Shown: positions 476 through 14,556 of the stretch, in pieces
How the letters are laid out: every line of letters starts with the position of its first letter
Numbering within the stretch: the first letter of the stretch is position 1
DNA from: Agathobaculum massiliense
GTDB lineage: Bacteria; Bacillota; Clostridia; Oscillospirales; Butyricicoccaceae
Reading direction: 5' to 3'
Assembly (NCBI RefSeq): GCF_900291975.1
Contig: NZ_OMPN01000001.1
Span: 3,019,501-3,083,500 of the forward strand
Length of the DNA stretch: 64,000 nucleotides
Notes under the pieces: generated by a model
What the model was told of the DNA's origin: nothing
Database searches by the model: none
Seen by the model: the letters and a program-made list of their open reading frames with translations, nothing else
Translations under genes and position numbers: made by a program

Positions 476-512
476 AACTTTTTGCGGATTTTTGCTTTTT
501 GCAAAAACGGTG

Positions 513-534: not shown

Positions 535-577
535 GGGTTAAAAATCAGGCGTTCCCGTTGATGGGAGCGCCCTTTTT

Positions 578-1966: not shown

Positions 1967-1979
1967 TTAATCACCATCA

Positions 1980-2576
1980 TCATAAAAAAGAGCTTGTAAA
2001 GCCATTGTCAGAAGAATTTTCAAATTGTTGTGGAAATTTAAAATCGATCAAAAATATATTTGAAAATTCTTGCTTAAATTCTTCATTAGATTTTATTTCT
2101 GCCTCAAGGGCTGACGCTAACATACTGTTCAACAGATCACGGCCAGCGCGTGGCAGTTTATTTAGTGCATTTGAAAGAAATTGATTTTCCTCCGACGAAT
2201 TTGCATTTTGTTCTGTGTCAAATGTAACTTCGCCAGTCTTATCAATTACGCCTAATATATGCGGAAACTCAGTTCGCTTTTTATCGACGACCTTTAGTGT
2301 GAAAGCGACAAGATGCTTTCCATCGCCTTCCCACGGTAGTTTCAGAGAAATTGAACAGCTATCGACAGAAAAATCAATGGGTACAACGGTGAATAGGTCA
2401 CTCATGCTTACAGAAAGGTAAATGCATAACGAATTTGCAGTGTCAAATTGAACACCCTTTCCTGAATTGTAGTAAAGCGCGGTCAAAGTGGTTCGCGAAA
2501 CACCGGTATCCGCAGAAACTTTGGAAATTTTTAGTTTTCGCTCAGCAAGCAGGATAGCCAAATTGCAAATAATCAT
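1980..2576 (-). CDS. XRE-like repressor of the element
   Basis: This is a 198-residue protein with an N-terminal helix-turn-helix (ISKVSADTGVSRTTLTALYY) and a C-terminal half I do not recognise. The ATG at 2576 is preferred because GAGGAGGG lies 5 bases upstream of it, whereas an upstream TTG has no site. The HTH is clearly paralogous to the small divergent protein at 2703, giving a CI/Cro-like pair. It likely controls both divergent promoters and, through co-transcription, the integrase. The C-terminal part could sense an inducer or mediate oligomerisation; no peptidase (S24) motif is evident. Confidence 0.8.
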   Translation of the reverse strand: MIICNLAILLAERKLKISKVSADTGVSRTTLTALYYNSGKGVQFDTANSLCIYLSVSMSDLFTVVPIDFSVDSCSISLKLPWEGDGKHLVAFTLKVVDKKRTEFPHILGVIDKTGEVTFDTEQNANSSEENQFLSNALNKLPRAGRDLLNSMLASALEAEIKSNEEFKQEFSNIFLIDFKFPQQFENSSDNGFTSSFL

Positions 2577-2595
2577 ATTTTCCCTCCTCAAAAAA

Positions 2596-2624
2596 ATTGT
2601 ACAATACTCTGTTCATTATGTCAA
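2596..2624 (-). promoter_or_regulatory. Leftward promoter (repressor-int)
   Basis: On the minus strand TTGACA (2619-2624) and TACAAT (2596-2601) are 17 bp apart. A TGAACA hexamer (2610-2615 on this strand) sits in the spacer, where bound regulator would block polymerase. Confidence 0.8.
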
Positions 2625-2681
2625 TAAGGCTTGACAATAATCGAATGGATTATTATAATTAAATGAACAAACATCTGAACA
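2610..2681. promoter_or_regulatory. Candidate operators TGAACA
   Basis: The hexamer TGAACA occurs at 2664-2669 and 2676-2681, just downstream of the rightward -10 box. Its complement TGTTCA occurs at 2610-2615, inside the leftward promoter. The placement is what a bistable repressor/antirepressor switch needs. Binding is inferred. Confidence 0.55.
2631..2659 (+). promoter_or_regulatory. Rightward promoter (Cro-like gene and replication operon)
   Basis: TTGACA (2631-2636) and TATAAT (2654-2659) are 17 bp apart, a consensus sigma-A promoter. Its -35 box lies only 6 bp from the -35 box of the leftward promoter, so the two overlap back to back. Confidence 0.85.
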
Positions 2682-2702
2682 TTTTATATGGAGGTATAGA
2701 CA

Positions 2703-2924
2703 ATGAACGTGATTGTAAAAAACCGATTCGCTGCGTTGTTAGGTGAACGTCGCCTTAAAATCAGCGATATTTCTCGCGCTACTGGCATTTCCCGAACAAC
2801 ACTAACCAATCTATACTACGGGAAAGGCGCATCTATCTCGTTTCGAGTGTTGGTTGCGTTATGTGAATATTTAGATTGCTCAGTTGGTGATATTATCGAT
2901 ATACAACACAAGGAGGCGATCTAA
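2703..2924 (+). CDS. Small XRE-family regulator (Cro-like)
   Basis: This 73-residue protein is essentially one helix-turn-helix (ISDISRATGISRTTLTNLYYGKG) followed by 'LVALCEYLDCSVGDII', typical of minimal XRE/YozG-like regulators. It resembles the N-terminus of the divergent repressor at 1980-2576, so both may bind the same operators with opposite outcomes. A site GGAGGT lies upstream. It is the first gene of the rightward operon and its stop overlaps the next start (TAATG). Confidence 0.85.
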   Translation: MNVIVKNRFAALLGERRLKISDISRATGISRTTLTNLYYGKGASISFRVLVALCEYLDCSVGDIIDIQHKEAI

Positions 2925-3175
2925 TGCCCGCACGCATGAGATTTCCCGCACAGGCTTTGGAGGAATTGCGCAAAGCTGATCCTGAAACGCAGGTCAGCTT
3001 AAAGCTAATACGCCGCCTGATACATACCGGCGCTGTGCCGTCCGTTCCAGTCGGTAACGGAAACCGCCGTCTGGTCAATCTGGATGCGCTTATTAACTAC
3101 TTGGAGAGGCCGCCAGAGGGCAAGCCCGAACAGGCGCAGGGCATCCGGCGCATCAACGAAAGGCGGGTGGTGTAA
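2924..3175 (+). CDS. Small DNA-binding protein, possible excisionase
   Basis: This 83-residue basic protein has a MerR/excisionase-like winged-helix look: 'SLKLIRRLIHTGAVPSVPVGNGNRRLVNLDALINYL' reads as a recognition helix, a wing and the 'R-LVNLDAL' segment seen in helix-turn-helix type 17 and Xis proteins. GGAGG lies before its ATG, which overlaps the preceding stop by one base. A role in excision or operon control is inferred from size and place. Confidence 0.6.
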   Translation: MPARMRFPAQALEELRKADPETQVSLKLIRRLIHTGAVPSVPVGNGNRRLVNLDALINYLERPPEGKPEQAQGIRRINERRVV

Positions 3176-3176
3176 T

Positions 3177-3476
3177 TTGAAGATTACAGACTATCTTCCT
3201 ACGGGCAAGGAGAACGCCATCCCCAGCAAGACGCTTGCTGAAATACTCGGCTTTGACACTGTGCGCGAGCTTCAAAAAGCGATCGAGCGGGAGCGGCAGG
3301 CAGGCGCGGTTATCCTATCCACCTGTACAGAGGGCGGCGGCTATTTTTTGCCCGCCAACGAGACAGAGATCAGGGAGTTTATCCGCACCTTGTCGAACCG
3401 TGCCAAGAATACCCGCCGCTCTATGGAAAGCGCACTGGATGCACTGGACGGAATGACCGGACAAATGCGGCTGTAA
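3177..3476 (+). CDS. Uncharacterised operon protein, winged-helix-like
   Basis: This is a 99-residue protein read from TTG at 3177, one base after the previous stop. Starts further upstream would run through the neighbouring gene. The segments 'IPSKTLAEILGFDTVRELQKAIERER' and 'LPANETEIREFIRTL' suggest a small helical DNA-binding fold with selectivity between start states, as in many phage and mobile-element early proteins. I cannot name a family. It lies in the replication operon. Confidence 0.65.
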   Translation: MKITDYLPTGKENAIPSKTLAEILGFDTVRELQKAIERERQAGAVILSTCTEGGGYFLPANETEIREFIRTLSNRAKNTRRSMESALDALDGMTGQMRL

Positions 3477-3490
3477 GGCGGTGAGCGCAC

Positions 3491-4198
3491 TTGTCAGACT
3501 ACTACACAATTATTCCTGCGCAGGTGCGCACGGATAGCAGCCTATCACTACTGGCACGGCTGCTTTATGGCGACATAGCAGCACTCGCAAGCGATTCTGG
3601 TGAATGTTGGGCGAGTAACACATTTTTCGCAAACGAATATCGGAAAGACCGGACGCGAGTTATAGCGGCTATCAAAGAACTGATTTCGGCTGGGTATGTG
3701 CGAACGGAGTACCGCAAACCGGGGAATAATGGACGAGTTTTGATACCCTGTTGCGAAAACGCTACCACCAGTTGTGAAAATGCAACGGGCAGTAGTGAAA
3801 ACGCAACAGACCCGTTGCAAAAACACAACGGGACCCGTCGTGAAAACGCGACACATAATAATAAAAAGACTAATAAGAATGAATACACATGCGCATTTGC
3901 GCAATTTTGGAAAGCGTACCCCAAGAAGCAGGATAAGGCCAAGGCACAAAAAGCATTTGACAAGCTCAGGCCAGACCAAGCCCTGCTTGACCAAATTCTT
4001 GCAGCGTTGGAGTGGCAAACGAGGTCGGCAGACTGGGCGAAGGACGGCGGTCAGTTTATCCCGTTTGCCAGTACATACCTGAACGGCCGCAGGTGGGAGG
4101 ACGAGCCGCCAGCTAACACTACGGCGACAAGGCCGAGTGTGCCGAAGCTGAAAACATTCATTGACGAGAATGGGAACGAGGTGGCGCAGTTTTGCTGA
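3491..4198 (+). CDS. HTH replication protein with Asn/Thr-rich linker
   Basis: The first ~85 of 235 residues form an HTH_36/DnaD-N-like winged helix ('LSLLARLLYGDIAALASDSG', 'RVIAAIKELISAGYV'). A linker at about residues 88-130 repeats the motif ENAT four times with variation. A C-terminal helical block ('FWKAYPKKQDKAKAQKAFDKL') resembles the C-terminus of phage replication initiators. The start is TTG at 3491 behind AAGGCGGTG. The helicase gene overlaps its end, so it likely acts as helicase loader or initiator for the element. Confidence 0.8.
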   Translation: MSDYYTIIPAQVRTDSSLSLLARLLYGDIAALASDSGECWASNTFFANEYRKDRTRVIAAIKELISAGYVRTEYRKPGNNGRVLIPCCENATTSCENATGSSENATDPLQKHNGTRRENATHNNKKTNKNEYTCAFAQFWKAYPKKQDKAKAQKAFDKLRPDQALLDQILAALEWQTRSADWAKDGGQFIPFASTYLNGRRWEDEPPANTTATRPSVPKLKTFIDENGNEVAQFC

Positions 4199-5466
4199 AC
4201 GATAATTTTCTAACCGCCGAAAACGCGGTGATCGGGGCTTGTCTGGTTGACCCTGCCCTGTGGCGGGTGGTGCTGGACAAGCTGCACAGGGATGATCTGT
4301 ATTCTGATTTCAACCGCGAAGCCTATGACATAGCGCGGCGGTTTGATCTGGACGGCAAGGAACCGCCTAACGCAGTAGAGATTGCAGACGCGGGCGTAGA
4401 TCGTACCGCCTTGTTTGGCTGCATGGAAGTCGCATGCGCAGAGCGCGATTTAGACCGTTCTATCGAGCTTGTCAAGAAAGCAGCGCGCCGCCGCGAGCTG
4501 GCAACTATCGGCAAACTGCTGGAGGACGGCGCACTGAACGGCGATGAACCCGAAACGCTGATCGCGGAAACCGAAAAGCGGATCGCTGCGCTGGACGAGC
4601 GGGACAGCGGACAGCTTTTGACCGGACTTGATATTGCATCAGCTTTTTACGATTTCCGAGATCAGATAAGCGGGAAGATCGTCAAAACCGGCTTGCAGTC
4701 GATTGACGACACGTTAGGCGGCGGTATGCTTCCGAGCGGGTTTTATATATTGGCGGCGCGCCCTGGCTGTGGTAAGACGGCTTTAGCTTTGCAGATCGCG
4801 GGCAATGTTGCGGAGCACGGCGGCGCAGTGCTGTTCGTGTCATTGGAAATGGATGTTTCCCAGCTTCAAGCACGGCGGTTATCAAGCCGAACGGGAATAT
4901 CCGCGACCCGACTGCTGTTGGACGAAAATCTATCTGCCGAGGAATGGCAGCGCGTACAGGCCGCAAACGTTGGACTGTCACGCCTGCCGCTGTATGCCAA
5001 TGGCAAAGAGGGGTGTTCCGTGCTTGATGTGCGGTCTATGGCGCGCAAGGTCAAAGGGCTGTCGTTGGTCGTGGTCGATTATCTCGGCCTGCTGCGGCCT
5101 GAACGAAGCCGGTCAAGCCGGTACGAGGAAATCACCGCCATCTCGAACAGTCTGAAAACCCTTGCCCGTTCGCTCAAAGTACCGGTCCTATGCCTTGCGC
5201 AACTCAATCGCGCCAGCGAACAGCGAGCAGACAAAAAGCCGGGGCTTGCCGACCTGCGGGACAGCGGCGCGATAGAGCAGGATGCGGACGCGGTCTTGCT
5301 GATGCACCGGCCGGATATGTACGGCAAGGAAAGCGAACGCGGCGATCTGGTCTTTGTTTCAACACAGATCGCGAAAAACCGGCACGCGGGGACAGCGGCC
5401 TTTGAACTGGGCTTCAACCTACAGACAGGACGATTTATCCCAGTGAAAGGAGGGTATCAAGAATGA
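4192..5466 (+). CDS. DnaB-like replicative helicase
   Basis: This 424-residue RecA-fold helicase has a DnaB N-terminal domain (residues ~5-100), a short linker, and a C-terminal ATPase with Walker A R-P-G-C-G-K-T (190-196) and Walker B around 'LVVVDYLGLL' (~290). 'CLAQLNRASEQRADKKPGLADL' and 'DSGAIEQDADAVLLMHR' are DnaB signatures. The TTG start overlaps the stop of the initiator gene by 7 bp, indicating coupled translation. Together they form a replication module, so the element may replicate after excision. It is shorter than chromosomal DnaB (about 450). Confidence 0.9.
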   Translation: MLNDNFLTAENAVIGACLVDPALWRVVLDKLHRDDLYSDFNREAYDIARRFDLDGKEPPNAVEIADAGVDRTALFGCMEVACAERDLDRSIELVKKAARRRELATIGKLLEDGALNGDEPETLIAETEKRIAALDERDSGQLLTGLDIASAFYDFRDQISGKIVKTGLQSIDDTLGGGMLPSGFYILAARPGCGKTALALQIAGNVAEHGGAVLFVSLEMDVSQLQARRLSSRTGISATRLLLDENLSAEEWQRVQAANVGLSRLPLYANGKEGCSVLDVRSMARKVKGLSLVVVDYLGLLRPERSRSSRYEEITAISNSLKTLARSLKVPVLCLAQLNRASEQRADKKPGLADLRDSGAIEQDADAVLLMHRPDMYGKESERGDLVFVSTQIAKNRHAGTAAFELGFNLQTGRFIPVKGGYQE

Positions 5467-5792
5467 CCTTTGAGGAATTGAAAAAGCGCGCCTACCACGA
5501 TCACCCCATACCTGACGGCCTGAACAAGACCGAGCGCCTGCAATACATCGCCGCCCGCCGTATCTATGCAGGGTACAAGTCCGGCGAAATCGACAGGACG
5601 GAAGCCGAGCCGATGCTGGGCAAGGTGCAGGAATACCCGCGCCTGATGGCGGCAGAAAAGCGGGCGTTGCTGCGGTACTTGTTCGCCCTGCTTTGCGAGG
5701 ATGCTGGATGCGGTATGCAAAGCGCGCTGGATGATTCTAAATTCGTTGCGAGGGTATACAGCTCAGAGAACTTGAAGGGATCGCTGGCCTGA
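5463..5792 (+). CDS. Uncharacterised operon protein
   Basis: This 109-residue protein starts at an ATGA overlap with the helicase stop and has a strong site (GGAGGG) upstream. It is charged and probably all-helical ('TFEELKKRAYHDH', 'AAEKRALLRYLFALL'). No family is recognised. Tight coupling to the helicase suggests a replication accessory role. Confidence 0.65.
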   Translation: MTFEELKKRAYHDHPIPDGLNKTERLQYIAARRIYAGYKSGEIDRTEAEPMLGKVQEYPRLMAAEKRALLRYLFALLCEDAGCGMQSALDDSKFVARVYSSENLKGSLA

Positions 5793-5814
5793 TCTGTTCG
5801 ACTTAGTACAGATT

Positions 5815-5863
5815 ACGCGCGCGAAATATCACAAAAAGTCACGAAATCTCACACATAAAAAAA
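5815..5863 (+). repeat. Degenerate 49-bp repeat, copy 1
   Basis: It starts ACGCGCGCGAAAT and ends CACATAAAAAA, and aligns without gaps to 6143-6190. The two copies bracket the small zinc-finger gene and each lies shortly before a gene start, so they may be regulatory or origin sites. Confidence 0.6.
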
Positions 5864-5875
5864 GGAGCGATAGCA

Positions 5876-6127
5876 ATGTTTTATCTAAAGCACAAAGGAG
5901 AAAAACTGGACATCGGCGATGATAATGTTTTCACCACTTGCCCAATATGCGGCAAGGAGCATGCCGTTGACCTGCATGAGCTTTTAGCTGGCGGTGAAGC
6001 TGACTTGTTCGGTACGGCTGTTTACTGCCCAGCTTGTGCAGAACGGCGGTTTCGGGACAGGAAAACAGCACAGAGTAGCAAACAGGAAATGGCGCGCCCG
6101 ACCGGCCGTGTGCTCCCGTTCCGCTGA
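5876..6127 (+). CDS. Small zinc-finger protein
   Basis: This 83-residue protein has two Cys pairs, CPICGKEH near residues 22-29 and CPAC near 60-63, which should bind one zinc ion. AAAGGAG lies upstream of the ATG. Such proteins are common in clostridial mobile elements but lack a defined function. Location between two copies of a long repeat is notable. Confidence 0.7.
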   Translation: MFYLKHKGEKLDIGDDNVFTTCPICGKEHAVDLHELLAGGEADLFGTAVYCPACAERRFRDRKTAQSSKQEMARPTGRVLPFR

Positions 6128-6142
6128 TCGTGTGGACATTAC

Positions 6143-6190
6143 ACGCGCGCGAAATTTTGCAAAAAGCCGCGCGATCTCGCACATAAAAAA
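6143..6190 (+). repeat. Degenerate 49-bp repeat, copy 2
   Basis: Second copy of the repeat at 5815-5863, with most positions identical and conserved spacing between blocks (ACGCGCGCGAAAT, AAAAAG, ATCTC, CACATAAAAAA). It precedes the sigma-like gene leader. Confidence 0.6.
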
Positions 6191-6220
6191 GCGGCAAGTC
6201 CCTGCACGGCCTGCCGCTCT

Positions 6221-6263
6221 CCCGCTCGATCTTGCTTTGTGGTCTTATTCTACCACGAGCGGG
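6221..6263 (+). promoter_or_regulatory. Hairpin reaching the ribosome site of the sigma-like gene
   Basis: CCCGCTCG (6221-6228) pairs perfectly with CGAGCGGG (6256-6263), with an inner GTGGT/ACCAC stem. The last bases (GGG) belong to the Shine-Dalgarno GGGAGG at 6261-6266, so folding would restrict translation of the downstream ORF. Confidence 0.5.
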
Positions 6264-6275
6264 AGGTCATGCGCA

Positions 6276-7034
6276 ATGACAAATGAAGAACTGGCCGCGC
6301 GTGCCAAGACAGGCGACAGGGACGCGCTGGCGCAGCTATGGGAGCAGAATCGCGGGGTGCTCGCATCCATATTCCGCGAACTGGCACGCAAGGCAGGCGC
6401 GAGGATGGCTGCTATGGGCGTAACATGGGAGGACGTGGAACAATCCTTCTTCCTTGCGGTCGCGCTCGCTGTGCGGCTGTACGAGCCGGAACGGGGCGTT
6501 CTGTTCGCGTCGTTTCTCAAGTATCCGGTCAGGCAGGTTTTCTTTGATATGGTCGGCTGGCGCACGGAGCGGCAGAAGCACGACCCGCTCGGGAAAAGCG
6601 TCAGCCTTGACGAGCCTGTACGCGGCGAGGATGGAAGCGAGACTGCCCGCGGCGAGCTTGTACCAGACCCAACGGACGCTTACGAGGATGCAGAGGAGCA
6701 GTTTTATATCGAGCAGCTTCACGCCGCTTTGGACAAGTGCCTTGATGCGCTCGAACAGGAACAGGCCGCAGCGATCCGGTATCGCTATTATGACGGACTG
6801 ACACTGGCAGAAGCAGGGGACAGACTGGGATGTAATGCCGAGTATGCCCGCAAGCTGGAATACAAGGGCCTGCGCAGGCTGAGAAGCCCACAGAACATCC
6901 GCAGGCTGGAACAGTACAGGGAGCAGATCGTCAGCGAGGGCGCTTATCACGGTACGGGCTGGGCAGCGTGGAACAGCGGCGGCAGCGTCGAAGAGAGGAC
7001 AACCATTCGCCTTGAAGGAAAGGGGCTGCTGTGA
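6276..7034 (+). CDS. Sigma-70-like factor of the element
   Basis: This 252-residue protein has a sigma region-2-like start ('DALAQLWEQNRGVLASIFRE', 'ASFLKYPVRQVFFDMVGWR') and a region-4-like helix-turn-helix ('QAAAIRYRYYDGLTLAEAG', 'LGCNAEYARKLEYKGLRRL') at about 155-205. ATG 6276 is chosen because GGGAGG lies 9 bp before it. It probably directs polymerase to late element promoters or acts as an antiterminator-like late regulator. A hairpin covers its ribosome site. Its stop overlaps the start of a 57-residue ORF. Confidence 0.8.
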   Translation: MTNEELAARAKTGDRDALAQLWEQNRGVLASIFRELARKAGARMAAMGVTWEDVEQSFFLAVALAVRLYEPERGVLFASFLKYPVRQVFFDMVGWRTERQKHDPLGKSVSLDEPVRGEDGSETARGELVPDPTDAYEDAEEQFYIEQLHAALDKCLDALEQEQAAAIRYRYYDGLTLAEAGDRLGCNAEYARKLEYKGLRRLRSPQNIRRLEQYREQIVSEGAYHGTGWAAWNSGGSVEERTTIRLEGKGLL

Positions 7035-7204
7035 GGTATCCGGAGATTTTGGAGGCCCTAAAAAGACTTGGGGAAACTTGTGTTATCGCAGGGAGTTGTG
7101 ATAGCGCGAACACCCCCGTCGAAAAAACACCCCAGGTTCCACCGCCTGAACTCGGCACGGGGGGCAGGACAAAAGAGATATTTACGCGCGCACGGGAAAA
7201 GTAA
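7031..7204 (+). CDS. Small uncharacterised protein at operon end
   Basis: A GTG at 7031 overlaps the sigma-like stop (GTGA) and opens a 57-residue frame that begins 'MRYPEILEALKRLGETC' and ends in a proline/basic tail. The coupled start is the main evidence; the sequence matches no family I know. Confidence 0.45.
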   Translation: MRYPEILEALKRLGETCVIAGSCDSANTPVEKTPQVPPPELGTGGRTKEIFTRAREK

Positions 7205-7515
7205 ATGAGATTGCTTTTGACCACAAGCGGGTGGAAAGAAAGGATATTCGTGCTGCTTGTGAAAACTTGAGTTTTTAACAGCCTGCTAAAACTGCATAAA
7301 ATGTGAGAAAGTGAAACCATAAAAATGCCCCCCTCCCTTGTGTGTGGCCGTTTGGGTTTTGATCGGTCGGCTGGGTAACTCTTTCCAACTCTATGGGAAA
7401 TTACAGGGAAGGGGAGTATGCCGAGCCTTGAAAAGTGTCAAATGCTCTTCGTAGCCGCTGTCGCTTTGAGTGTCAGGATAAAAGAATATTTCATGCACAC
7501 ATGAGAAAAGGAACC
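7205..7515. other. Convergent non-coding interval
   Basis: The rightward operon ends here and a leftward operon ends at 7516. I see no convincing gene. A stem-loop at about 7502-7543 (GAGAAAAGG arm against CCTTCTC arm) can end leftward transcripts. No iterons or clear origin are visible. Confidence 0.4.
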
Positions 7516-7920
7516 TTACCCGTGCGGGTTTGGCTCCTTCTCCATCGGCACAATCATCCGGTATGCGTGTCCGTAGGCTTCGGCCGCGGCGCTGCACCGG
7601 TCAAAATGAGCGCTGTTTTGGGTGCGCTCTGCCTCGGCTAATAGCGCGTCCCGCCTGTTCTTGAGCGTTTCTGTGATATGTAGCAATCGTGGCGCTGTGA
7701 CCTGTGCGGCCTCTATTGCCGCGTCGTGTAATGCGACTGCCCACGCAAAGCCGCCTGCGAAAGCTGCTTCCTGTATCTCGACTGCGGCGGCGTTTGCCAT
7801 GTCGGTCAGGGTGGTATCATCGCCCAGAAGGTCATGCAGATGCCTTTCGGCTTCGCCTTCGACGGGGTATAGCTCTGATTGTGTCCACAACTCGTATTGT
7901 TCCTGTATCCGTTCATTCAT
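7516..7920 (-). CDS. Uncharacterised helical protein
   Basis: This 134-residue protein starts at 7920, where AGGAGGT lies 9 bp upstream; a further in-frame start at 7977 lacks a site. It is acidic and helical, rich in Ala and Glu ('AAAVEIQEAAFAGGFAWAVALHDAAIEAA'). Similar small proteins occur in clostridial integrated elements, but I cannot assign a function. It is the last gene of a leftward cluster. Confidence 0.65.
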   Translation of the reverse strand: MNERIQEQYELWTQSELYPVEGEAERHLHDLLGDDTTLTDMANAAAVEIQEAAFAGGFAWAVALHDAAIEAAQVTAPRLLHITETLKNRRDALLAEAERTQNSAHFDRCSAAAEAYGHAYRMIVPMEKEPNPHG

Positions 7921-7936
7921 CGGTGTGTACCTCCTG

Positions 7937-8023
7937 TTATAGTCCCAGTACAAGCGCCAGTATCGGGGCGTTGACAACGAACGCGAGCAGGCAGAAGCAC
8001 GCTATGCTTTTTATGATCTGCAC
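7937..8023 (-). CDS. 28-residue hydrophobic micropeptide
   Basis: A GTG at 8023, preceded by AGGCGGG, opens a frame that overlaps the end of the gene at 8011-8280 by 13 bp and stops at 7937. The product is almost one membrane segment ('CLLAFVVNAPILALVLGL'). Translation is inferred from coupling and composition only. Confidence 0.4.
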   Translation of the reverse strand: MQIIKSIACFCLLAFVVNAPILALVLGL

Positions 8024-8280
8024 AGTATTCCCGCCTTTGCTGCATGGCTTGCCTCCTGTTCAATCACAGCGCAAAATCCAAGGCCGGAAATAAACGCATG
8101 CCGTTCCAGTGCGCCAGCATAATCCCCAATCAGACTTTCAGCCTGATTATACAAATCGGAGGGGAGCCGCTTCGCAAGGCATCCAAACAGCGCGTCAGTA
8201 GCCCTCTGCACCGACGGTACGGGCTGCTTGTCTATGCTTGACCATAAAAGGTATAATTCATCTGTTAACACTGTTTTCAC
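8011..8280 (-). CDS. Uncharacterised small protein
   Basis: An 89-residue helical protein ('ELYLLWSSIDKQ', 'ALFGCLAKRLPSDLYNQAESLIGDYAG'). Two GTG codons, at 8280 and 8271, could start it; AAGGGAG lies just before the first and 10 bp before the second, so the later start is quite possible. The family is unknown. It lies in the leftward cluster of small element genes. Confidence 0.6.
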   Translation of the reverse strand: MKTVLTDELYLLWSSIDKQPVPSVQRATDALFGCLAKRLPSDLYNQAESLIGDYAGALERHAFISGLGFCAVIEQEASHAAKAGILCRS

Positions 8281-8313
8281 GCTCCCTTGGTAAAGTTATT
8301 TCAACCATCTTAC

Positions 8314-8451
8314 TTATTTTGTTTCGATTTGAACGTGGATTGTGATATTTTCCTCGCATGTACCGTACATTGCTGCAATAATCTGTTTGAGCAGCAATGA
8401 GTTATGCCGGGCATTGCCGATAAACTCGGTGATCGTCTGATCTTTCTCCAC
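8314..8451 (-). CDS. 45-residue protein, likely translated
   Basis: A GTG at 8451 with AAAGGAGT 9 bp upstream opens a frame beginning 'MEKDQTITEFIGNARHNSLL'. The product has balanced, protein-like composition with an amphipathic helix and an acidic middle. It is more convincing than the longer overlapping frame on the same strand, which is basic and cysteine-rich. Function unknown. Confidence 0.5.
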   Translation of the reverse strand: MEKDQTITEFIGNARHNSLLLKQIIAAMYGTCEENITIHVQIETK

Positions 8452-8548
8452 TTAGCTCTCACTCCTTTCTGAAAGCGATACAATCCTATGGTGGTTATTC
8501 TTGCAGGCTCCTTACCTTGCTTTGGTCGGCGGTGGTAAGGGGCTTTTC

Positions 8549-8824
8549 TCATGCGAGTACAAACCGCCTTGTCTCAGCCGAGCGGGTGAACCGTTCGTAA
8601 AGGTCGGGCATGGCGACCTTAAAAGCCTTGCTGTCAAACCGTGCGGACTGTACTGGCTTCCATGTGGCTTTCCAGTCGTCACCGGTCAGCATGTCCACGC
8701 CCTGGGCGGTCATTTCCCGCTTGATCGTGTCGGTGATGGCCTCGATCTCGGCGGCGATCTCCTCCGACATGCGGCGCAGCTCGCGCAGGTCTTTGACCTT
8801 GCTGTTTAACTCGGTTTTGTCCAT
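8549..8824 (-). CDS. Small coiled-coil protein of phage/element type
   Basis: 91 residues: an N-terminal coiled coil ('KVKDLRELRRMSEEIAAEIE'), then 'GDDWKATWKPVQSARFDSKAF' and the C-terminal motif 'RFTRSAETRRFVLA'. AAAGGAGG precedes the ATG. I recall proteins of this layout next to recombination genes in Firmicutes phages, but their job is not established. First gene of the leftward cluster. Confidence 0.7.
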   Translation of the reverse strand: MDKTELNSKVKDLRELRRMSEEIAAEIEAITDTIKREMTAQGVDMLTGDDWKATWKPVQSARFDSKAFKVAMPDLYERFTRSAETRRFVLA

Positions 8825-9209
8825 CGTGATTCCTCCTTTGGCTTTCGCCCAAAATTGGCGCTGTGTGTGCTTTGGTGGCTTTGACGTGGTCTTTTGTATC
8901 TATGCCTTGAAAATGGCATACAGCGCATTCTCGCGCCCGCCCGCGTCATCTTCGTGTCTATTGCCGTCTGTCGGCTCACAGGGATATGGTCGCGGGCTTC
9001 AAGGGTTTTCGTTCCCTTTGGGCTGCTGCCCGTTTCGGTGGGCTGTTCCGGCGGTCGTTATCGGAGCAAACTGCGTGCGGCAGGTAATGGGCTGCCTGCA
9101 ACCTGTCTCAGGGAGTTGTGCCAGCCGCCCGCTTGCGTGTCTATTGCTCTCGCTCACAGGTACGCGGTATGGCTCTTGGTCGGGTGGTCTTGCCCTCGGC
9201 GATCTTCCC
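8825..9209. other. Non-coding interval
   Basis: About 385 bp without a convincing gene on either strand. It separates the leftward small-gene cluster from the first toxin/antitoxin module. The leftward cluster promoter is presumably here but no strong match was found. Confidence 0.35.
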
Positions 9210-9237
9210 TTGACTTTGTGGTGGTGCGTGGTATAAT
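9210..9237 (+). promoter_or_regulatory. Promoter of antisense RNA 1
   Basis: TTGACT (9210-9215) and TATAAT (9232-9237), 16 bp apart, point to a transcript that contains no ORF and ends at 9341. Confidence 0.7.
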
Positions 9238-9243
9238 GGAACC

Positions 9244-9341
9244 AACAAGGCGGCTACCCCGCTGCAACGGGTCGGCTTCCTCATAATCTCGAGAACTTGT
9301 AAGGAAAGCCGCTCTTTTGCTAAGGGCGGTTATTTCTTTTT
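9244..9341 (+). ncRNA. Antisense RNA of type I toxin module 1
   Basis: The predicted transcript is about 98 nt. Its terminator pairs CCGCTC (9309-9314) with GGGCGG (9324-9329) before TTATTTCTTTTT. Its 3' end is complementary to the end of the toxin gene at 9330-9392 on the other strand, as RatA is to txpA mRNA in Bacillus. This is inferred from layout. Confidence 0.65.
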
Positions 9342-9392
9342 AAGGACGAGAACCGTTAAAAAGATGATGTACAATGCAAGTACGATCTCCAC
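9330..9392 (-). CDS. Type I toxin, 20-residue membrane peptide (module 1)
   Basis: GTG at 9392 follows GGAGGTGAT at a 6-bp distance. The peptide is one hydrophobic segment ('VEIVLALYIIFLTVLVL') with a KKK tail, the pattern of small holin-like type I toxins of Firmicutes. It would insert in the cell membrane and depolarise it unless its mRNA is held off by the converging antisense RNA. Confidence 0.65.
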   Translation of the reverse strand: MEIVLALYIIFLTVLVLKKK

Positions 9393-9476
9393 GGTATCAC
9401 CTCCCACGGAGGAACAACCGTGCCGCCTGTTGGCTCCCAGCTCGGGAGTTTTTGTTTTCTCCTTTGCTGTGATTAT

Positions 9477-9505
9477 ATTATAATATATGGACGACAATAT
9501 ATCAA
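9477..9505 (-). promoter_or_regulatory. Promoter of toxin 1
   Basis: On the minus strand TTGATA (9500-9505) and TATAAT (9477-9482) are 17 bp apart, giving a leader of roughly 80 nt before the toxin start. Confidence 0.65.
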
Positions 9506-9565
9506 TGGACATATCAAACAATATTGACGACAATATATTGTTTATATTTTATATGGACGACAATA
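9490..9565 (+). repeat. Three GACGACAATA repeats (operator-like)
   Basis: Exact copies start at 9490, 9526 and 9556. They lie between the toxin promoter and the start of the ribbon-helix-helix gene, and the third overlaps the -35 region of that gene (TATAAT at 9577-9582). They are good candidates for autoregulatory binding by that protein. Confidence 0.6.
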
Positions 9566-9612
9566 GATAATTGTGCTATAATTATGGCATAATGGAGGAG
9601 GTGCGTTTTTAT

Positions 9613-9813
9613 ATGTCGACCAGCAAAGCACAACAGAAGGCTACTGCAAAGTATGTTAAGCAAAACTATGACCGCATAGAAGTAAAAGTCCCCAAAGGCC
9701 GTAAAACCGAGTTGCAAGCCCATGCAGCGAAGCGAGGGGAAAGCGTGAACGGATTTATCAACCGTGCCATAGATGAGCAGGTCAAGCGGGATAATACCCA
9801 CGAGGAGGAGTAG
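9613..9813 (+). CDS. Ribbon-helix-helix (Arc-like) regulator
   Basis: A 66-residue protein with the beta strand 'YDRIEVKVPKGRKTEL' and helices 'LQAHAAKRGESVNGFINRAIDEQV' of the Arc/MetJ fold. ATG 9613 is used since GGAGGAGGTG lies upstream; a longer frame has no site. It ends 3 bp before the Uma2 gene, so the two form an operon. By analogy with other Arc-like/nuclease pairs it may repress the operon through the GACGACAATA repeats; an antitoxin role is possible but unproven. Confidence 0.85.
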   Translation: MSTSKAQQKATAKYVKQNYDRIEVKVPKGRKTELQAHAAKRGESVNGFINRAIDEQVKRDNTHEEE

Positions 9814-9816
9814 CCA

Positions 9817-10380
9817 ATGCCGTTACCGCAGGAAAAGCATTATACCTATGCGGATTATCTGACATGGGAAAGCAACGAAAAGTATGAACTGTTCGATGGG
9901 GTGCCGGTCATGCAGGCGCGTCCGAGCATCCAGCACCAGAATATAGAGGGCGCGCTATTGCAGCAGCTTAGGAACCTCCTTGACGGCAAGCCTTGTCAGG
10001 CCTTTGCGGAGATCGAGGTATTGTTTCCCGACTATGCGCAGCAGAAAGCGGAGGACGTGCCAAACATCTATGTGCCGGATATCGTGGTAGTGTGCGAGCC
10101 GGAAAAACTGACAGAGCAATATTGCATCGGCGCACCGACCCTCGTTATGGAGATTCTTTCGCCATCCACGGCGAAGGCTGACCGGCTCGTTAAACTGAAC
10201 AAGTACCAGCAAGCGGGCGTGCCGGAATACTGGATCGTATCGCCGCAGGAACGGAATGTGACGGTGTTTGCCTTGGAAAACGGCGTATACCGCACAGCAG
10301 CAGTCTATACCAGTGAGGACACCGCGGCGCGCATACTTTCTCTGGATGGGTGTGTGTTGGATTTGTCCAAGGTATTGTGA
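9817..10380 (+). CDS. Uma2-family (DUF820) putative endonuclease
   Basis: 187 residues with the Uma2 fold: 'YTYADYLTWESNEKYELFDGVPVM' at the N-terminus and 'YVPDIVVVCEP ... GAPTLVMEILSPSTAKADR' in the PD-(D/E)XK region (D about 89, E about 112), then 'KLNKYQQAGVPEYWIVSP'. The family is nuclease-like but poorly studied. It is paired with an Arc-like regulator. A second, truncated Uma2 gene lies at 62760-63130. Confidence 0.88.
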   Translation: MPLPQEKHYTYADYLTWESNEKYELFDGVPVMQARPSIQHQNIEGALLQQLRNLLDGKPCQAFAEIEVLFPDYAQQKAEDVPNIYVPDIVVVCEPEKLTEQYCIGAPTLVMEILSPSTAKADRLVKLNKYQQAGVPEYWIVSPQERNVTVFALENGVYRTAAVYTSEDTAARILSLDGCVLDLSKVL

Positions 10381-10637
10381 GATATGACCCTCGCGTCAGT
10401 ATGAGACGGTACTGTACGGAGCAAGGATAAAGCCTTTTCAAGATAGCTTAACGACAAAACGTCAATGAGTGATCGGCTCAATTTTGAGCGGATTAGGGGG
10501 TGTCGCACAACACGACACCTTTCTCCTGCATGTGGGGATGTCGCCAGTTATGGCGGTATCTTGCTTAGACAAAATCCTATTTTGCCGGTCGAGCGGGCGC
10601 GTTCTGAGGGCAAAAGAAAACCGCCCTGCTGGACGGC
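10381..10637. other. Non-coding interval with a hairpin
   Basis: No gene is evident. GGTGTCG (10499-10505) and CGACACC (10513-10519) form a perfect 7-bp stem with a 7-nt loop followed by TTTC, a plausible terminator for the Uma2 operon. Confidence 0.4.
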
Positions 10638-10666
10638 TTGACAATCCCGCTCGGGGCGGGTATACT
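10638..10666 (+). promoter_or_regulatory. Promoter of antisense RNA 2
   Basis: TTGACA (10638-10643) and TATACT (10661-10666) with 17-bp spacing. Confidence 0.8.
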
Positions 10667-10672
10667 GAGTAT

Positions 10673-10766
10673 AGAAAAGGGCGCTACCGGTAGACGGTTA
10701 GCCCCTATGCTTTGGTTGAGAAGTAACCGCATTCATTTGGACGTGATGGCGGTTACTTCTTTTTTA
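10673..10766 (+). ncRNA. Antisense RNA of type I toxin module 2
   Basis: A predicted transcript of about 94 nt without an ORF, ending in an 11-bp terminator stem (GAAGTAACCGC, 10720-10730, with 10749-10759) and seven T. It runs into the 3' end of the toxin gene on the opposite strand, repeating the layout of module 1. Confidence 0.7.
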
Positions 10767-10824
10767 TTGCGATTATGTACCCTGTAGCAACGATCAAAAG
10801 CAAGATCATAGCTTGATAGTCCAT
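10753..10824 (-). CDS. Type I toxin, 23-residue membrane peptide (module 2)
   Basis: ATG at 10824 follows AAAGGGGGC. The peptide 'MDYQAMILLLIVATGYIIAI' plus a KKK tail is a single membrane helix with a charged end, like holin-type toxins. The convergent antisense RNA overlaps its 3' end. It differs from toxin 1 in sequence, so the two modules probably do not cross-neutralise. Confidence 0.7.
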   Translation of the reverse strand: MDYQAMILLLIVATGYIIAIKKK

Positions 10825-10888
10825 GCGCAAGCCCCCTTTCAGGGGCAAGACTTAACCGCCTACCGCTGGCTCGGTAGCGCCTGTACAA

Positions 10889-10917
10889 AGTATAACAGAA
10901 ATCGACAGCACGCACAA
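10889..10917 (-). promoter_or_regulatory. Promoter of toxin 2
   Basis: On the minus strand TTGTGC (10912-10917) and TATACT (10889-10894) are separated by 17 bp. Confidence 0.65.
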
Positions 10918-10972
10918 GGGCGTATTCCCCCGAAATATCGGGGCAAGGCTGCAATACGGACGGTTGCTTTTT

Positions 10973-11005
10973 GTGGTGTTTGCTTGGTGTTTATTTGGTG
11001 TTTAT
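10973..11005 (+). repeat. Right arm-type integrase repeats (3 x 11 bp)
   Basis: One variant (GTGGTGTTTGC) and two exact copies of TTGGTGTTTAT in tandem, matching 513-534 near attL. They sit about 115 bp inside attR. The rest of 10825-11119 shows no gene. Confidence 0.7.
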
Positions 11006-11119
11006 GCACCTGAAAACAGCGGTTGTTAAGTGGTCGCAAAAGTATGTGATACATGACATAAAACGCTATATCTTGTGTTTTAATTGCATATATAGACGCA
11101 ACCGAACACAAAATAAGTC

Positions 11120-11166
11120 GACTGGGGGTCAAGAGGCCGCAGGTTCAAGTCCTGTCACTCGGACCA
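11120..11166 (+). repeat. attR: 47-bp direct repeat
   Basis: Exact copy of the tRNA-Pro 3' end (389-435), without the tRNA 5' half. It marks the right end of the 10.7-kb element. Confidence 0.92.
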
Positions 11167-11212
11167 GCAAAGAAACCTGTTTTTGATTTAGGTCAAAAGC
11201 AGGTTTCTTGCT
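11166..11212 (+). terminator. Original tRNA-Pro terminator, now beyond attR
   Basis: A long stem (AGCAA-AGAAACCTG arm with CAGGTTTCT-TGCT arm) follows attR directly. It is likely the chromosomal terminator displaced from the tRNA by the insertion. Confidence 0.6.
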
Positions 11213-11378
11213 ATTTCAGGGGCGTTGCTTTTCCAGAAACAGTAAAATCAGAGAATTATATCAGGTTTTGTGGCCCTTTCACAAGTTTATAATCCACATA
11301 TCCTTGACTTCTCCATGATGCCTTAGAGAAAACTTCCATATAAGTGACATTAAAAATTCAGAGAGGAGCATCTTCGTC

Positions 11379-12014
11379 ATGGGCGTCCCATACGGATATT
11401 ATCTCGCGCCAAACGGTCATGTGGCCATCGATCAGGAAAAAGCAAATATCGTGAGAATGATTTATCAGCAATACCTCTCCGGCATGAGCCTGGGCGGGAT
11501 TGCTGATTTTCTGTTCGAGAGCAACATTCCATCCCCTAAAGGCAGGGAACGCTGGACACAGCCAGTTCTCAGCAATCTGCTTTCCAATCAGAAGTACATC
11601 GGCTCCATTGTCAGCTTTGACGATTTCTTTTTAGTGCAGGGAGAGAAAAGCAGGCGGAGCAATATAGATGAGGACACCCATCAGAGAAAGGCCACCCGGT
11701 ACAACTCGCAGAGTGTACTGAGCGGCCTTTTGGTTTGCGCGGAATGTGGCCATAATTACCGCCGCATTACCCGGCCATCCGGCGAGATCGTCTGGCGTTG
11801 TGCCAGCCGGGTGGAGCATGGAAAAAAGTTCTGCCAGCATTCGCCCTCCATACCGGAGGACAGGATCAAGGAAGTCTTTTGTGAGAAGTTAGGCCTGAGC
11901 ACATTTGACGGGGACAAGATCAAAAGCAAGGTCGATGTCATCTTGGTCCAGTCTGATGGCAGTTTACAGATTGAGCTGCAATGTGCGGAATATTTGGAGA
12001 TGCTCCCGAATTAA
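11379..12014 (+). CDS. Serine recombinase DNA-binding part (lacks catalytic domain)
   Basis: 211 residues holding a 'Recombinase' domain ('GVPYGYYLAPNGHVAIDQEK', 'PSPKGRERWTQPVLSNLLSN') and a zinc beta ribbon (CAEC near residue 123 and later Cys/His). The N-terminal resolvase domain with the active-site serine is missing. GAGAGGAGC stands 10 bp before the ATG, so it may be expressed alone as a DNA-binding protein; otherwise it is a truncated large serine recombinase. It precedes the RloC-like gene and hints at an older mobile origin of this A+T-rich island. Confidence 0.8.
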   Translation: MGVPYGYYLAPNGHVAIDQEKANIVRMIYQQYLSGMSLGGIADFLFESNIPSPKGRERWTQPVLSNLLSNQKYIGSIVSFDDFFLVQGEKSRRSNIDEDTHQRKATRYNSQSVLSGLLVCAECGHNYRRITRPSGEIVWRCASRVEHGKKFCQHSPSIPEDRIKEVFCEKLGLSTFDGDKIKSKVDVILVQSDGSLQIELQCAEYLEMLPN

Positions 12015-12037
12015 GTCTATCCTTGTAGCAGGCTGTC

Positions 12038-12046
12038 TGGTATAAT
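12038..12046 (+). promoter_or_regulatory. Extended -10 promoter of the RloC-like gene
   Basis: TGG followed by TATAAT (12041-12046) forms an extended -10 box between the recombinase stop and the ATG at 12084. The -35 region is weak. Confidence 0.5.
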
Positions 12047-12083
12047 ATCCCTATCAGCACTTCTGCGTGAGGAGGAGATTATA

Positions 12084-14459
12084 ATGTCAACAACAATTGA
12101 CAGCATGACAGGGATAAATATAAAATCTCCGTTTTTTGATACGACTGCCTTACTTAATCTGTTCCCTACTCATCGAGCACCAAAAAAGAACCGAGTCGCG
12201 TTGGTGTATGGAGCTAACGGGAGTGGTAAGAGTACGATTGCGCAGGGATTTAGAGAATACGCAATGTCAACAACACCCAAAACAGTAGATTTGATTCCTG
12301 TAGTTGAAACAGATATCATTAAAATGTCTCCAGGATTGAAAGCCGAGAAATTCTTTGTTTTTGACGAAACATATATTTCCCAAAATATAAGAGTACAGGA
12401 AAGCGGCTTGGGGACAATCGTTCTTTTTGGTAAACAAGTTGAACTTGAAAAGCAGTTAGAGGAGCTGGAGAAACAGATTGCTCAAGTTCAAACTGACATC
12501 GATTCCAAAAGCGAGTTTATCCAACAGTATAAATCAGCAACTAATGTTGTGGCCCCAGAATACTGGCAAAGTTTAATCATTAAGAAATTACAGGCCGCTG
12601 GCGGGTGGGCTGAAACGAGTGGAATCCGTATAAAAAAGAACCACATTAAAACACGTGTAACAGAGATAGAAGTAGACAGGCTTGGTAAGTTAAAACCTCG
12701 TATGGATGAGGCAACAACGCGTGCAACGCTTGATGAATTGTTGGTTGTCTTTGATAGTACTGATGCTTCTGCATTACCTATTAGTCCACAGATTCGGGCT
12801 ATCGAGCCTCCGGAAAAGATAGTAGAATCTGCAAAAATACTTTTAGCAAAAATGCCACAAAAACCAACATTGACTTCGCGTGAGCAGGAGTTACTCCAGT
12901 CGATGGGCATTGATGTGCTTTCAACTGCAAAGGGGTTCTTATCGGTAAGATCGCACAAGATTTGCCCAACCTGTTTACAGCCAATATCGGAGGAACATCG
13001 GGTAGAATCGTTACAGCGAATTGAGAATATCTTGAACCGCGAAGTAGAGGAATACCGCAACGAGCTAAAAAAATTAATATTGTCCGAAATCCAAGCAGAC
13101 TTTTATCAGGACTATAGTGTCTTGGATTCCGAACTCTTTGGGAATTTAATTTTACAAATATCCTCTGTTAATAGCGCAATTGGAAATCACAATAAAGTTG
13201 TCCAGGCAAAAATTTCTGATCCCCTTTCTCTGGCACAGTATGATACCTTCACAGATTTGATAACCGCGTATAAACAGCTGAATGATATTTTAGTAAAGTT
13301 AGAAGATAAAAGATTGTCCTATAATCAAATTATTACAAATAGGCAGACTACAGAGAAAGACCTTTTGAAATTTAATGATGAGATTGCCCATTATACAATT
13401 GACTCTGAATATCAATCGTTGATATCACAGAGAACAGCAAAGCAAACCGCAGAGAAAGAGTTGGCCAAGTCACTTCAAGCTAAAAATAACCTTTTAGATA
13501 AGCGTCAACTTTTAGATGCACAACGAAAGAATCTTCAAATCGCTGTCGAGCAGATTAACAAATCACTTTCTTATATCTTCTATAGTGATACCAGACTCCA
13601 ATTGTATCTTGGAAACGACCAAATGTACCACTTGAAAGTGAGTGGGAAGGATGTTTCTCCGAATAAAATATCATGTGGGGAACGAAATGCTTTGGCCTTA
13701 AGTTATTTTTTTGCTGAAATTGCAAAAGAAACAGAATTTCAAAAACTATACTATGATGAAATGTTCCTGGTTATTGATGATCCTGTTTCAAGTTTTGATG
13801 TTGAAAATCGAGTAGGAATTCTATCATTTTTAAGATATAAGCTAAATCAGATTCTTACATCATGTGCAACAACAAAAGTTCTAATGATGACGCATGATGT
13901 GAGTGTGATGTTTGATTTGCAGAAAGCCCTGGACGAAATTTCTTCGAATTGTGCTGGAATAGGGAAGAACTCTGAGTACTGTTCATTCCAACTTCTAAAT
14001 AAGACAATAACCCCGTTTATGGCAAATTCTCACAATGAATACACGCAGCTAATGCGCTGTGTGTATGAATATGGTTGTAATCCTGATTTTGCGGCGGAAC
14101 TAACCATCGGTAACACAACAAGACGAGTCTTAGAAGCGTTTGCAACATTCACATTTAAAGAAGGTGTCGAGAAAGTCAGCCTGAATCCACGGGTGCTCAC
14201 GCTAATTCCTGATCAGAATAAAAGAGCATATTTCCAGAATTCCATGTATCGCTTGGTTTTGAATACTGAAAGCCATTCTAAGGAAAACGTACAAGGAGCA
14301 CCAGAGATGAGTTTCTTCAGTCATCTTACCACGACAGAGAAACAACACACAGCCAGAGACGTCTTATGTTTTATGTATTGTGTTAACCCAGCACATGTAT
14401 TGTCTCATTTGCCAGATGCCCAGAAAGAATTGGATGATTGGATGACAAATGTGAAATAG
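12084..14459 (+). CDS. rloC: RloC-like ATPase with zinc hook and putative anticodon nuclease
   Basis: 791 residues of the AAA_13 type. Walker A GANGSGKST lies at 43-51. A long coiled coil is interrupted by a zinc-hook CPTC (C294, C297). The ABC-like signature SCGE is at 530-533, Walker B 'FLVIDDPVSSFD' at 561-572, and an H-loop at H604. The C-terminal part contains R680-x3-E684 and 'NTESH' with H731, matching in order the Arg-Glu-His triad of PrrC/RloC tRNA anticodon nucleases. Known RloC proteins have this length and architecture and cut tRNA during phage infection or DNA damage. The gene is strongly A+T-rich compared with the core genes, so it is probably acquired. Substrate tRNA cannot be read from sequence. 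No restriction-modification genes are adjacent. Confidence 0.85.
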   Translation: MSTTIDSMTGINIKSPFFDTTALLNLFPTHRAPKKNRVALVYGANGSGKSTIAQGFREYAMSTTPKTVDLIPVVETDIIKMSPGLKAEKFFVFDETYISQNIRVQESGLGTIVLFGKQVELEKQLEELEKQIAQVQTDIDSKSEFIQQYKSATNVVAPEYWQSLIIKKLQAAGGWAETSGIRIKKNHIKTRVTEIEVDRLGKLKPRMDEATTRATLDELLVVFDSTDASALPISPQIRAIEPPEKIVESAKILLAKMPQKPTLTSREQELLQSMGIDVLSTAKGFLSVRSHKICPTCLQPISEEHRVESLQRIENILNREVEEYRNELKKLILSEIQADFYQDYSVLDSELFGNLILQISSVNSAIGNHNKVVQAKISDPLSLAQYDTFTDLITAYKQLNDILVKLEDKRLSYNQIITNRQTTEKDLLKFNDEIAHYTIDSEYQSLISQRTAKQTAEKELAKSLQAKNNLLDKRQLLDAQRKNLQIAVEQINKSLSYIFYSDTRLQLYLGNDQMYHLKVSGKDVSPNKISCGERNALALSYFFAEIAKETEFQKLYYDEMFLVIDDPVSSFDVENRVGILSFLRYKLNQILTSCATTKVLMMTHDVSVMFDLQKALDEISSNCAGIGKNSEYCSFQLLNKTITPFMANSHNEYTQLMRCVYEYGCNPDFAAELTIGNTTRRVLEAFATFTFKEGVEKVSLNPRVLTLIPDQNKRAYFQNSMYRLVLNTESHSKENVQGAPEMSFFSHLTTTEKQHTARDVLCFMYCVNPAHVLSHLPDAQKELDDWMTNVK

Positions 14460-14514
14460 AGTGGAACCTTTAACAAAATATCGATTTTAACCGTCCTTTC
14501 CATATTTTGATTAT

Positions 14515-14556
14515 CCGAACGGCAGTATTCGAGTGGATACTGCCGTTCGGATTTTT
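14515..14556 (+). terminator. Terminator after the RloC-like gene
   Basis: A perfect 14-bp stem (CCGAACGGCAGTAT arm, 14515-14528, with 14537-14550) is followed by ATTTTTATT. Confidence 0.9.

Follow-up and report, generated by a model that had tools for sequence, protein, structure and literature searches.

A predicted RloC-type nuclease carried in a putative tRNA-end cassette of Agathobaculum massiliense

We analyzed a 64,000-nucleotide stretch of Agathobaculum massiliense DNA (RefSeq assembly GCF_900291975.1, contig NZ_OMPN01000001.1, positions 3,019,501 to 3,083,500 of the forward strand), referred to as the window, which encodes a 791-residue RloC-like protein downstream of a tRNA-Pro(GGG) gene (Table 1). 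A 10.7-kb element with a tyrosine integrase interrupts the tRNA locus, flanked by two exact copies of a 47-bp repeat. Behind its attR begins a 3,336-bp unit composed of a terminator-like hairpin, a gene for a 211-aa "headless" large serine recombinase, a promoter-like sequence, the RloC gene, and a right-end motif. The initial annotation placed RloC directly beyond attR; in fact, the gene starts 917 bp after attR, behind the recombinase-like gene. For the cassette and RloC, the sequence anatomy, boundaries, conservation, selection, and recurrence are established. They suggest that an RloC-type nuclease is the cargo of a tRNA-end cassette, an explanation to which, as a whole and on sequence grounds, we assign a probability of about 0.7.

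Table 1. Features of the tRNA-Pro locus and the RloC cassette (window coordinates; residues refer to the protein in which they lie)
Feature	Position	Strand	Remark
tRNA-Pro(GGG), insertion target	360..435	+	
attL copy of the 47-bp repeat (tRNA-Pro 3' part)	389..435	+	
10.7-kb element, inserted in the tRNA	436..11166		tyrosine integrase 578-1966(-); lies between the cassette and the complete tRNA gene
attR copy of the 47-bp repeat (tRNA 3' part)	11120..11166	+	
3,336-bp cassette carrying RloC	11167..14502	+	L010 counterpart also 3,336 bp, ~95% identical
Left-end hairpin, GCAAAGAAACCTG...CAGGTTTCTTGC	11167..11209	+	terminator-like, directly behind tRNA CCA
"Headless" large serine recombinase, 211 aa	11379..12014	+	Recombinase and Zn-ribbon domains, no Resolvase catalytic domain
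Extended -10 like TGGTATAAT	12038..12046	+	candidate cargo promoter in the constant region, 37 bp ahead of the RloC start
RloC-like protein, 791 aa, ATG start	12084..14459	+	ABC/Rad50-like head split by a helical insert; PrrC/RloC-type C-terminal nuclease part
Walker A GANGSGKS, residues 43-50	12210..12233	+	G43, G48, K49 invariant
Zinc-hook motif CPTC, residues 294-297	12963..12974	+	C294, C297 invariant
ABC signature SCGERN (530-535), Walker B/D-loop DDPVSSFD (565-572), switch His604	13671..13895	+	
Predicted ribonuclease triad R680, E684, H731, with S730 before His	14121..14276	+	spacing rule x36-52
Right-end motif CAAAATATCGATTTTAACCGTCCTTTCCA	14474..14502	+	
Hairpin terminator behind the cassette	14513..14552	+	read as the displaced tRNA-Pro terminator; stem base ATCCGAAC

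The 791-aa open reading frame (ORF) carries every motif first ascribed to it, at the residues named: Walker A, CPTC, the ABC motifs at 530 to 604, and R680/E684/H731. Its nuclease part reads R680-x3-E684-x46-H731, with S730 preceding H731, and CPTC is its sole CxxC. As published, RloC proteins measure 658 to 897 aa and combine an ABC head, into which a CxxC-bearing coiled coil is inserted, with an R-x3-E-x36-52-H triad, often with Ser before His (PMC2610378); a second paper assigns the nuclease to HEPN (PMC3710099).

Among 2,000 shuffled versions of the window protein, 226 contained CxxC and 89 contained R-x3-E-x36-52-SH. Since single motifs are thus weak alone, we tested conservation, and it is conservation that makes them significant. 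In an alignment of eight sequences (27 to 94% identity to the window protein), the Walker A, hook, and ABC residues G43, G48, K49, C294, C297, S530, G532, E533, D565, D566, and H604 are invariant, as are R680, E684, S730, and H731, so that the triad passes the alignment check proposed for it at the outset and chance co-occurrence of the motifs is rejected. A second alignment of 26 AAA_13 ORFs (9 from the subfamily described below and 17 others) retains R, E, S, and H in 9/9 subfamily rows and both hook cysteines in all 8 rows that cover that region. The Pfam AAA_13 match spans residues 33 to 734 (1.8e-49, 169.6 bits; cut-off, 36), PADLOC returns PDC-S06 profiles (best, 1.1e-35) and a PrrC profile over residues 518 to 742 (7e-11), and the hook region weakly matches profiles of the Rad50 structures 6zff (0.019) and 1l8d (0.14).

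The ratio of nonsynonymous to synonymous substitution (dN/dS) is 0.18 against the 94%-identical counterpart at locus L010 and 0.10 against the 74%-identical L011, where dS (1.59) is near saturation. For residues 1 to 130, 131 to 500 (the coiled-coil part), 500 to 640, and 641 to 791, respectively, the values are 0.15, 0.26, 0.08, and 0.15 against L010 and 0.09, 0.145, 0.03 (dS, 2.4), and 0.087 against L011. An AlphaFold2 model built from an eight-row alignment is of low confidence (mean pLDDT, 59.9; pTM, 0.41) and contains long helices at residues 116 to 171, 303 to 329, 349 to 378, 389 to 418, and 441 to 498. Every testable sequence feature (profiles, motifs, conservation, and dN/dS) agrees with the RloC-like identity initially proposed. 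We conclude that, by its sequence, the protein is RloC-type and a predicted cutter of tRNA anticodon loops.

Not all AAA_13 proteins keep the triad: in the 17 comparison proteins outside the subfamily, the triad column holds His in 8, another residue in 8 (including L022 of the host), and a gap in 1. The window protein might by analogy be an RloC lookalike with no role as a defense nuclease, either a decayed or a housekeeping SMC/Rad50-like ATPase, a reading that we hold to be highly improbable because its own subfamily has lost none of the four residues and its nuclease part has a dN/dS of 0.087 against L011. A housekeeping role is further disfavored by the cassette setting, by a G+C content of 0.38 versus 0.60 to 0.64 just downstream, and by a patchy distribution, with homologs in 2/87 family, 5/394 order, and 2/391 class genomes (own genome counted each time). 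Both hook cysteines are present in 16/17 comparison proteins. Val occupies the triad His column in L016, L018, and L019. The host's second AAA_13 protein (L022, L047; C2:2499286-2501466 in its own genome) keeps R-x3-E and CxxC, with Ile at the triad His, and its gene sits upstream of genes for a C5 cytosine methylase and an N6_Mtase/Type_ISP_C protein. Against AAA_13, the window protein scores 169 bits, weaker than the 382 bits of the second host gene.

On a tree of 18 AAA_13 proteins, the window protein and those of L010, L011, L045, L004, L043, L044, and L005 separate from ten others with a support of 1.000; both tree and alignment contain no biochemically proven RloC (Geobacillus kaustophilus, Acinetobacter baylyi). 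The tree includes 18 of the 26 aligned sequences; L002 (a fragment that lacks Walker A and the hook), L021, L023, L025, L031, L032, L035, and L036 were dropped. Omitted from the alignment were L001 and L011, which duplicate the window gene and L007; the fragments or weak matches L026 to L030, L033, L034, and L037 to L042; and L012, a subfamily fragment at a contig edge. The window protein belongs to a divergent RloC-type subfamily found mostly in Firmicutes; as a protein, it is a new branch of a known kind. Eleven plasmid records match RloC, none at ≥60%; one of the relatives, L004, lies on a Pusillibacter plasmid and is 34% identical. Phages yielded no RloC match. The single-protein query found no relative in viral contigs, and the alignment query found at least 9 loci there, the best segments being 21 to 34% identical among the matches listed; the four viral relatives used for the AlphaFold2 model are 18 to 20% identical overall. 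At L011, RloC is near a tRNA-Ser, with neither cassette end present.

The unit around RloC recurs with the same boundaries: window positions 11164 to 14502 are 95% identical to L010:4892-8230, from the metagenome-assembled genome Candidatus Onthovicinus excrementipullorum. In the window, the left boundary is the final base of the tRNA, and of seven copies in which the left end is seen, six (the window, L093, L094, L110, L112, and L113) abut a tRNA or tRNA-like 3' CCA. ARAGORN calls a full tRNA at L093, L112, L113, and window positions 360 to 435 and makes no call at L094 and L110. The left-hairpin region (11167 to 11215) folds at -26.1 kcal/mol (z, -7.9). The -10-like sequence is identical in 5/5 aligned copies; it has no good -35 and is not among the consensus-scan results. 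In Rfam searches, the cassette ends match no known RNA, and the gathering level gives only tRNAs and two riboswitches; below threshold there are four window matches, of which two (23 and 20 bits, under their family cut-offs) overlap the left hairpin.

A hairpin follows CCA at 12/12 tRNA-Pro(GGG) loci of the genus (11 relatives and the host's own; z, -3.2 to -7.0), and the stem base ATCCGAAC is common to two of them (L076 and L081) and to the hairpin after the window cassette. The simplest history that these sequences suggest is that the unit was inserted, with its own hairpin, between the tRNA and its terminator and that the 10.7-kb element came later, so that the 11167 to 14502 insertion is probably the older one. 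Under this cassette reading, the empty site would read tRNA-CCA directly followed by TATTTTGATTATCCGAACGG. In addition to the tyrosine integrase, whose HTH match is borderline, the 10.7-kb element encodes a DnaB-like helicase and two further proteins, one of the Uma2 family and one with sigma-70 region 4.

The left part of the unit is constant, and its cargo varies, being defense-like in other copies as well. DNA homology to the window in L093, L094, and L095 ends at position 12075, 9 bp ahead of the RloC start, and in L093 and L094, where the left end is present, the module starts at a tRNA. In place of RloC, L095 carries genes for a KilA-N protein and a SIR2_2 protein; L093 ends at a contig edge inside an L095-type SIR2 gene, the remainder of which lies on another contig (L115); and L094, located near C2:631 kb of the host genome, carries a KilA-N protein and a DEAD/ResIII helicase. 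L096 has a 50%-identical headless recombinase with KilA-N and helicase-like proteins. The left module has no match in plasmids and phages, and the 211-aa protein matches only recombinases of <60% identity among plasmids (168 records) and phages (166).

Only PF07508 and PF13408 are above cut-off in the 211-aa protein, alongside weak CcrA/CcrB matches. At an E value of ≤1e-35, it has 5 matches, itself included, in 4 of 394 genomes, all in frames of 129 to 231 aa, the 129-aa frame lying at a contig edge. Such a gene could be the dying remnant of a full-length integrase: its Resolvase domain is missing, and a search for remains of this domain gave no convincing hit, with nothing at 11167 to 11460 and best chance matches of E 3.8 and 5.6 in window positions 1 to 20000. 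We consider decay very improbable. The same truncation is found in the window, L010, L093, L094, and the divergent L096, and dN/dS is 0.13 to 0.20 in 6/6 computable pairs among the first four (the four pairs with L096 were left out because dS was saturated). For the window and L010, the deficit of amino acid changes has a binomial P of 1.3e-7. The 211-aa protein is thus under purifying selection, which indicates a functional gene rather than debris; it may bind the cassette ends or act as a regulator rather than recombine. Upstream of the RloC cassette, L010:190-4845 encodes two proteins: a serine recombinase that is full-length at 535 aa and an SMC-like ATPase of 976 aa, presumably TrlF-like. 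The 535-aa protein is a candidate helper of the headless recombinase.

The right-end motif also terminates the units of L010, L094, and L095 and stands directly behind the stop codon of the L004 RloC gene. A pattern scan allowing ≤1 mismatch gave 11 matches in 6/365 order genomes and 0 with the reversed pattern; viral contigs gave 0 matches. When 16 right ends were compared (leaving out the divergent end of the first L113 unit), 14 had CA at the end and 12 were followed immediately by a stable hairpin (z, -2.8 or lower). Many motif copies terminate noncoding units of 173 to 236 bp. They lie behind an intact tRNA-Arg(CCT) at L112 and in series at L110 and L111, and at L113 an intact tRNA-Thr(GGT) is followed by a 195-bp noncoding unit and then by a second unit of 538 bp that contains a 157-aa ORF. 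Across L110 to L114 and L010:8231-8415, noncoding units of ~170 to 240 bp are stacked behind tRNAs or each other, and some of their GC-rich parts are alike between genomes. The L112 noncoding unit has partial matches in two plasmid records (Pusillibacter and Vescimonas).

Because noncoding units share the motif, the common ends could be ordinary intergenic or tRNA-terminator repeats, RloC having moved with a conventional tyrosine-integrase island. An integrase element does occupy the same tRNA, and 7/10 RloC-subfamily loci are without the motif. We judge this alternative improbable nonetheless, since the unit is external to the integrase element, with its start exactly at CCA, the length of 3,336 bp is the same in the window and L010, motif-ended units follow one another head to tail behind the intact tRNA-Arg(CCT) and tRNA-Thr(GGT), and a left module with its protein-coding gene is common to copies with unrelated cargo. 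A bystander role for RloC beside the tyrosine-integrase element is rejected, the unit being outside attR. The initial view of RloC as standing beside an integration hotspot therefore holds for the tRNA location; RloC itself appears to be the cargo of a second insertion.

Several observations weigh against the explanation of RloC as cassette cargo. The motif is missing from 359/365 genomes and, within the RloC subfamily, occurs at 3/10 loci (the window, L010, and L004) and is absent at L005, L011, L012, L043, L044, L045, and L046, so most RloC relatives are not carried by such a cassette. L096 shows neither end motif, the right end reads CC in the second L010 unit and TA in L004, and no clear hairpin stands behind the motif in L095, L115, the second L010 unit, and one L114 copy (z, -0.7 to -1.6). 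No tRNA adjoins the L010 copy, though its left flank reads CCA. The SIR2 cassette is split over two contigs in genome G216 and cut inside the recombinase gene in G200. No circular form and no catalytic recombinase were identified for the cassette, and a search by synteny for the empty site of a close strain found none: in the single-contig relative G004, ~1 Mb separates the tRNA-Pro from the UvrD-like gene, and in other relatives the two are on separate contigs or not both seen. Kinship with RloC is drawn from the published rule, AAA_13 membership, and the tree of AAA_13 proteins, and since the AlphaFold2 model is poor, its Lamassu/Rad50 structure matches lend weak support. The UvrD-like gene of the window (15255 to 18404) encodes a 1,049-aa protein with the C-terminal part of a UvrD-type helicase and, in its first ~450 residues, no Pfam match in the scan.

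The initial annotation also described RloC as standing alone, without a restriction system. This is accurate for its neighborhood, as none of the host's HsdR_N or Methylase_S matches falls within the window. It does not extend to the subfamily, in which three members are linked to restriction-modification (R-M) genes: in L043 and L046, the gene immediately ahead of RloC is HsdR-type and the locus also contains an HsdM gene (an HsdS domain was confirmed in L043, and the L046 RloC copy is interrupted and absent from the tree), and in L044 RloC lies directly behind two Eco57I-type R-M genes. Thus, independence from R-M applies to the window copy, not to the subfamily. Moreover, HsdR_N and Methylase_S matches occur together at two other host loci (C2:1519676-1521596 and C2:3194801-3202956), so R-M control in trans is possible; a further Methylase_S match is at C2:760644. 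The C2:3194801-3202956 locus (L049 to L052, L054, L055), where the HsdR_N match is weak and several Methylase_S matches occupy both strands next to it, is possibly a shuffling type I specificity locus.

These linkages raise a PrrC-like mode, in which a type I R-M enzyme, in this case acting in trans, would hold the nuclease and have its state reported by it. We regard this as somewhat unlikely for the window protein. It has a zinc hook, whereas PrrC is 341 to 416 aa long, has no coiled coil or hook, and is linked to a type Ic R-M locus (PMC2610378). No R-M genes lie beside RloC in the window or, judging from the ORFs seen there, at L010 and L011, and nothing indicates contact between RloC and a host R-M enzyme.

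How the RloC-type protein would act can be sketched by analogy with published RloC work (PMC2610378; PMC3874168), in which sensing would proceed through the ABC/hook part and cleavage through the HEPN part. Two Rad50-like ABC heads, linked through coiled coils that meet at the CPTC zinc hook, would keep the C-terminal nuclease silent until DNA ends or DNA stress, or type I R-M failure in trans, altered the ATPase state. The nuclease (R680, E684, and H731) would then cleave tRNA anticodon loops, halting translation and aborting phage growth. In RloC, anticodon cleavage excises the wobble nucleotide and responds to zinc; tRNA cleavage, phage defense, and zinc regulation by the window RloC are predictions. 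An RloC entry in a Streptococcus thermophilus survey is recorded as "not tested" (PMC12322248).

The cassette itself is probably a mobile unit, with the order of left hairpin, serine recombinase devoid of its catalytic domain, promoter-like sequence, cargo, and right-end motif; movement may use serine-recombinase chemistry supplied in trans with a CA core. More tentatively, with confidence somewhat short of even, we propose a new class of mobile elements in gut Oscillospirales: tRNA-end cassette arrays, whose units of ~170 bp to 4.7 kb would be stacked at the 3' CCA of different tRNAs, each ending near AATATCGATTTTAACCGTCCCTTCCA. Coding units would swap RloC, KilA-N plus SIR2, and KilA-N plus helicase into the constant left module, with a catalytic serine recombinase acting in trans through a CA crossover. 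No description of tRNA-end cassettes was found in the titles and abstracts returned by searches of open-licence papers. The findings suggest that defense genes travel as small exchangeable cassettes at tRNA ends, together with a conserved DNA-binding recombinase minus its catalytic domain. If mobile, the cassettes would open a new route for immune-gene trade among gut bacteria, and their right-end motif would be a sequence tag for finding new defense genes. With R-M-linked and solo RloC in one subfamily, the question of response to restriction enzymes versus DNA damage could be compared within it.

Among known systems, the window protein resembles RloC of G. kaustophilus and A. baylyi (Davidov and Kaufmann, 2008; PMC2610378) in its length within the published range, split ABC head, central CxxC, and triad with Ser. 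It differs in forming a branch set off from ten further AAA_13 proteins (support, 1.000, on a tree without a proven RloC), in its weaker AAA_13 score, and in its carriage in a tRNA-end cassette. With PrrC (EcoprrI-linked) it shares the ABC ATPase, the same type of triad, the PADLOC PrrC profile match, and the R-M linkage of some subfamily members; with 791 aa, a CPTC insert, and no adjacent R-M genes, it does not belong to PrrC.

The 211-aa protein is similar to large serine recombinases and CcrA/CcrB in its Recombinase and Zn-ribbon domains and its weak CcrA/CcrB matches. Unlike them, it has no N-terminal Resolvase domain and so does not classify as a functional large serine recombinase; no catalytic partner was identified for the cassette. 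Serine recombinases use a two-base crossover, which CA at the junction fits. Like integron cassettes, the units are exchangeable genes that end in a short conserved site and are stacked behind an anchor, and their constant left part contains a promoter-like sequence. Unlike in integrons, the anchor is a tRNA CCA, the unit contains no integron-type tyrosine integrase, and its recombinase gene is of the serine type and lacks the catalytic domain. The attC sites of integrons fold, whereas the right-end site of the window does not (0 kcal/mol); for this reason, and because the unit has no recombinase gene besides the serine-type one, an attC-type integron was rejected. If the proposed class holds, tRNA-end arrays would be the serine-recombinase counterpart of the integron, specialized for defense genes.

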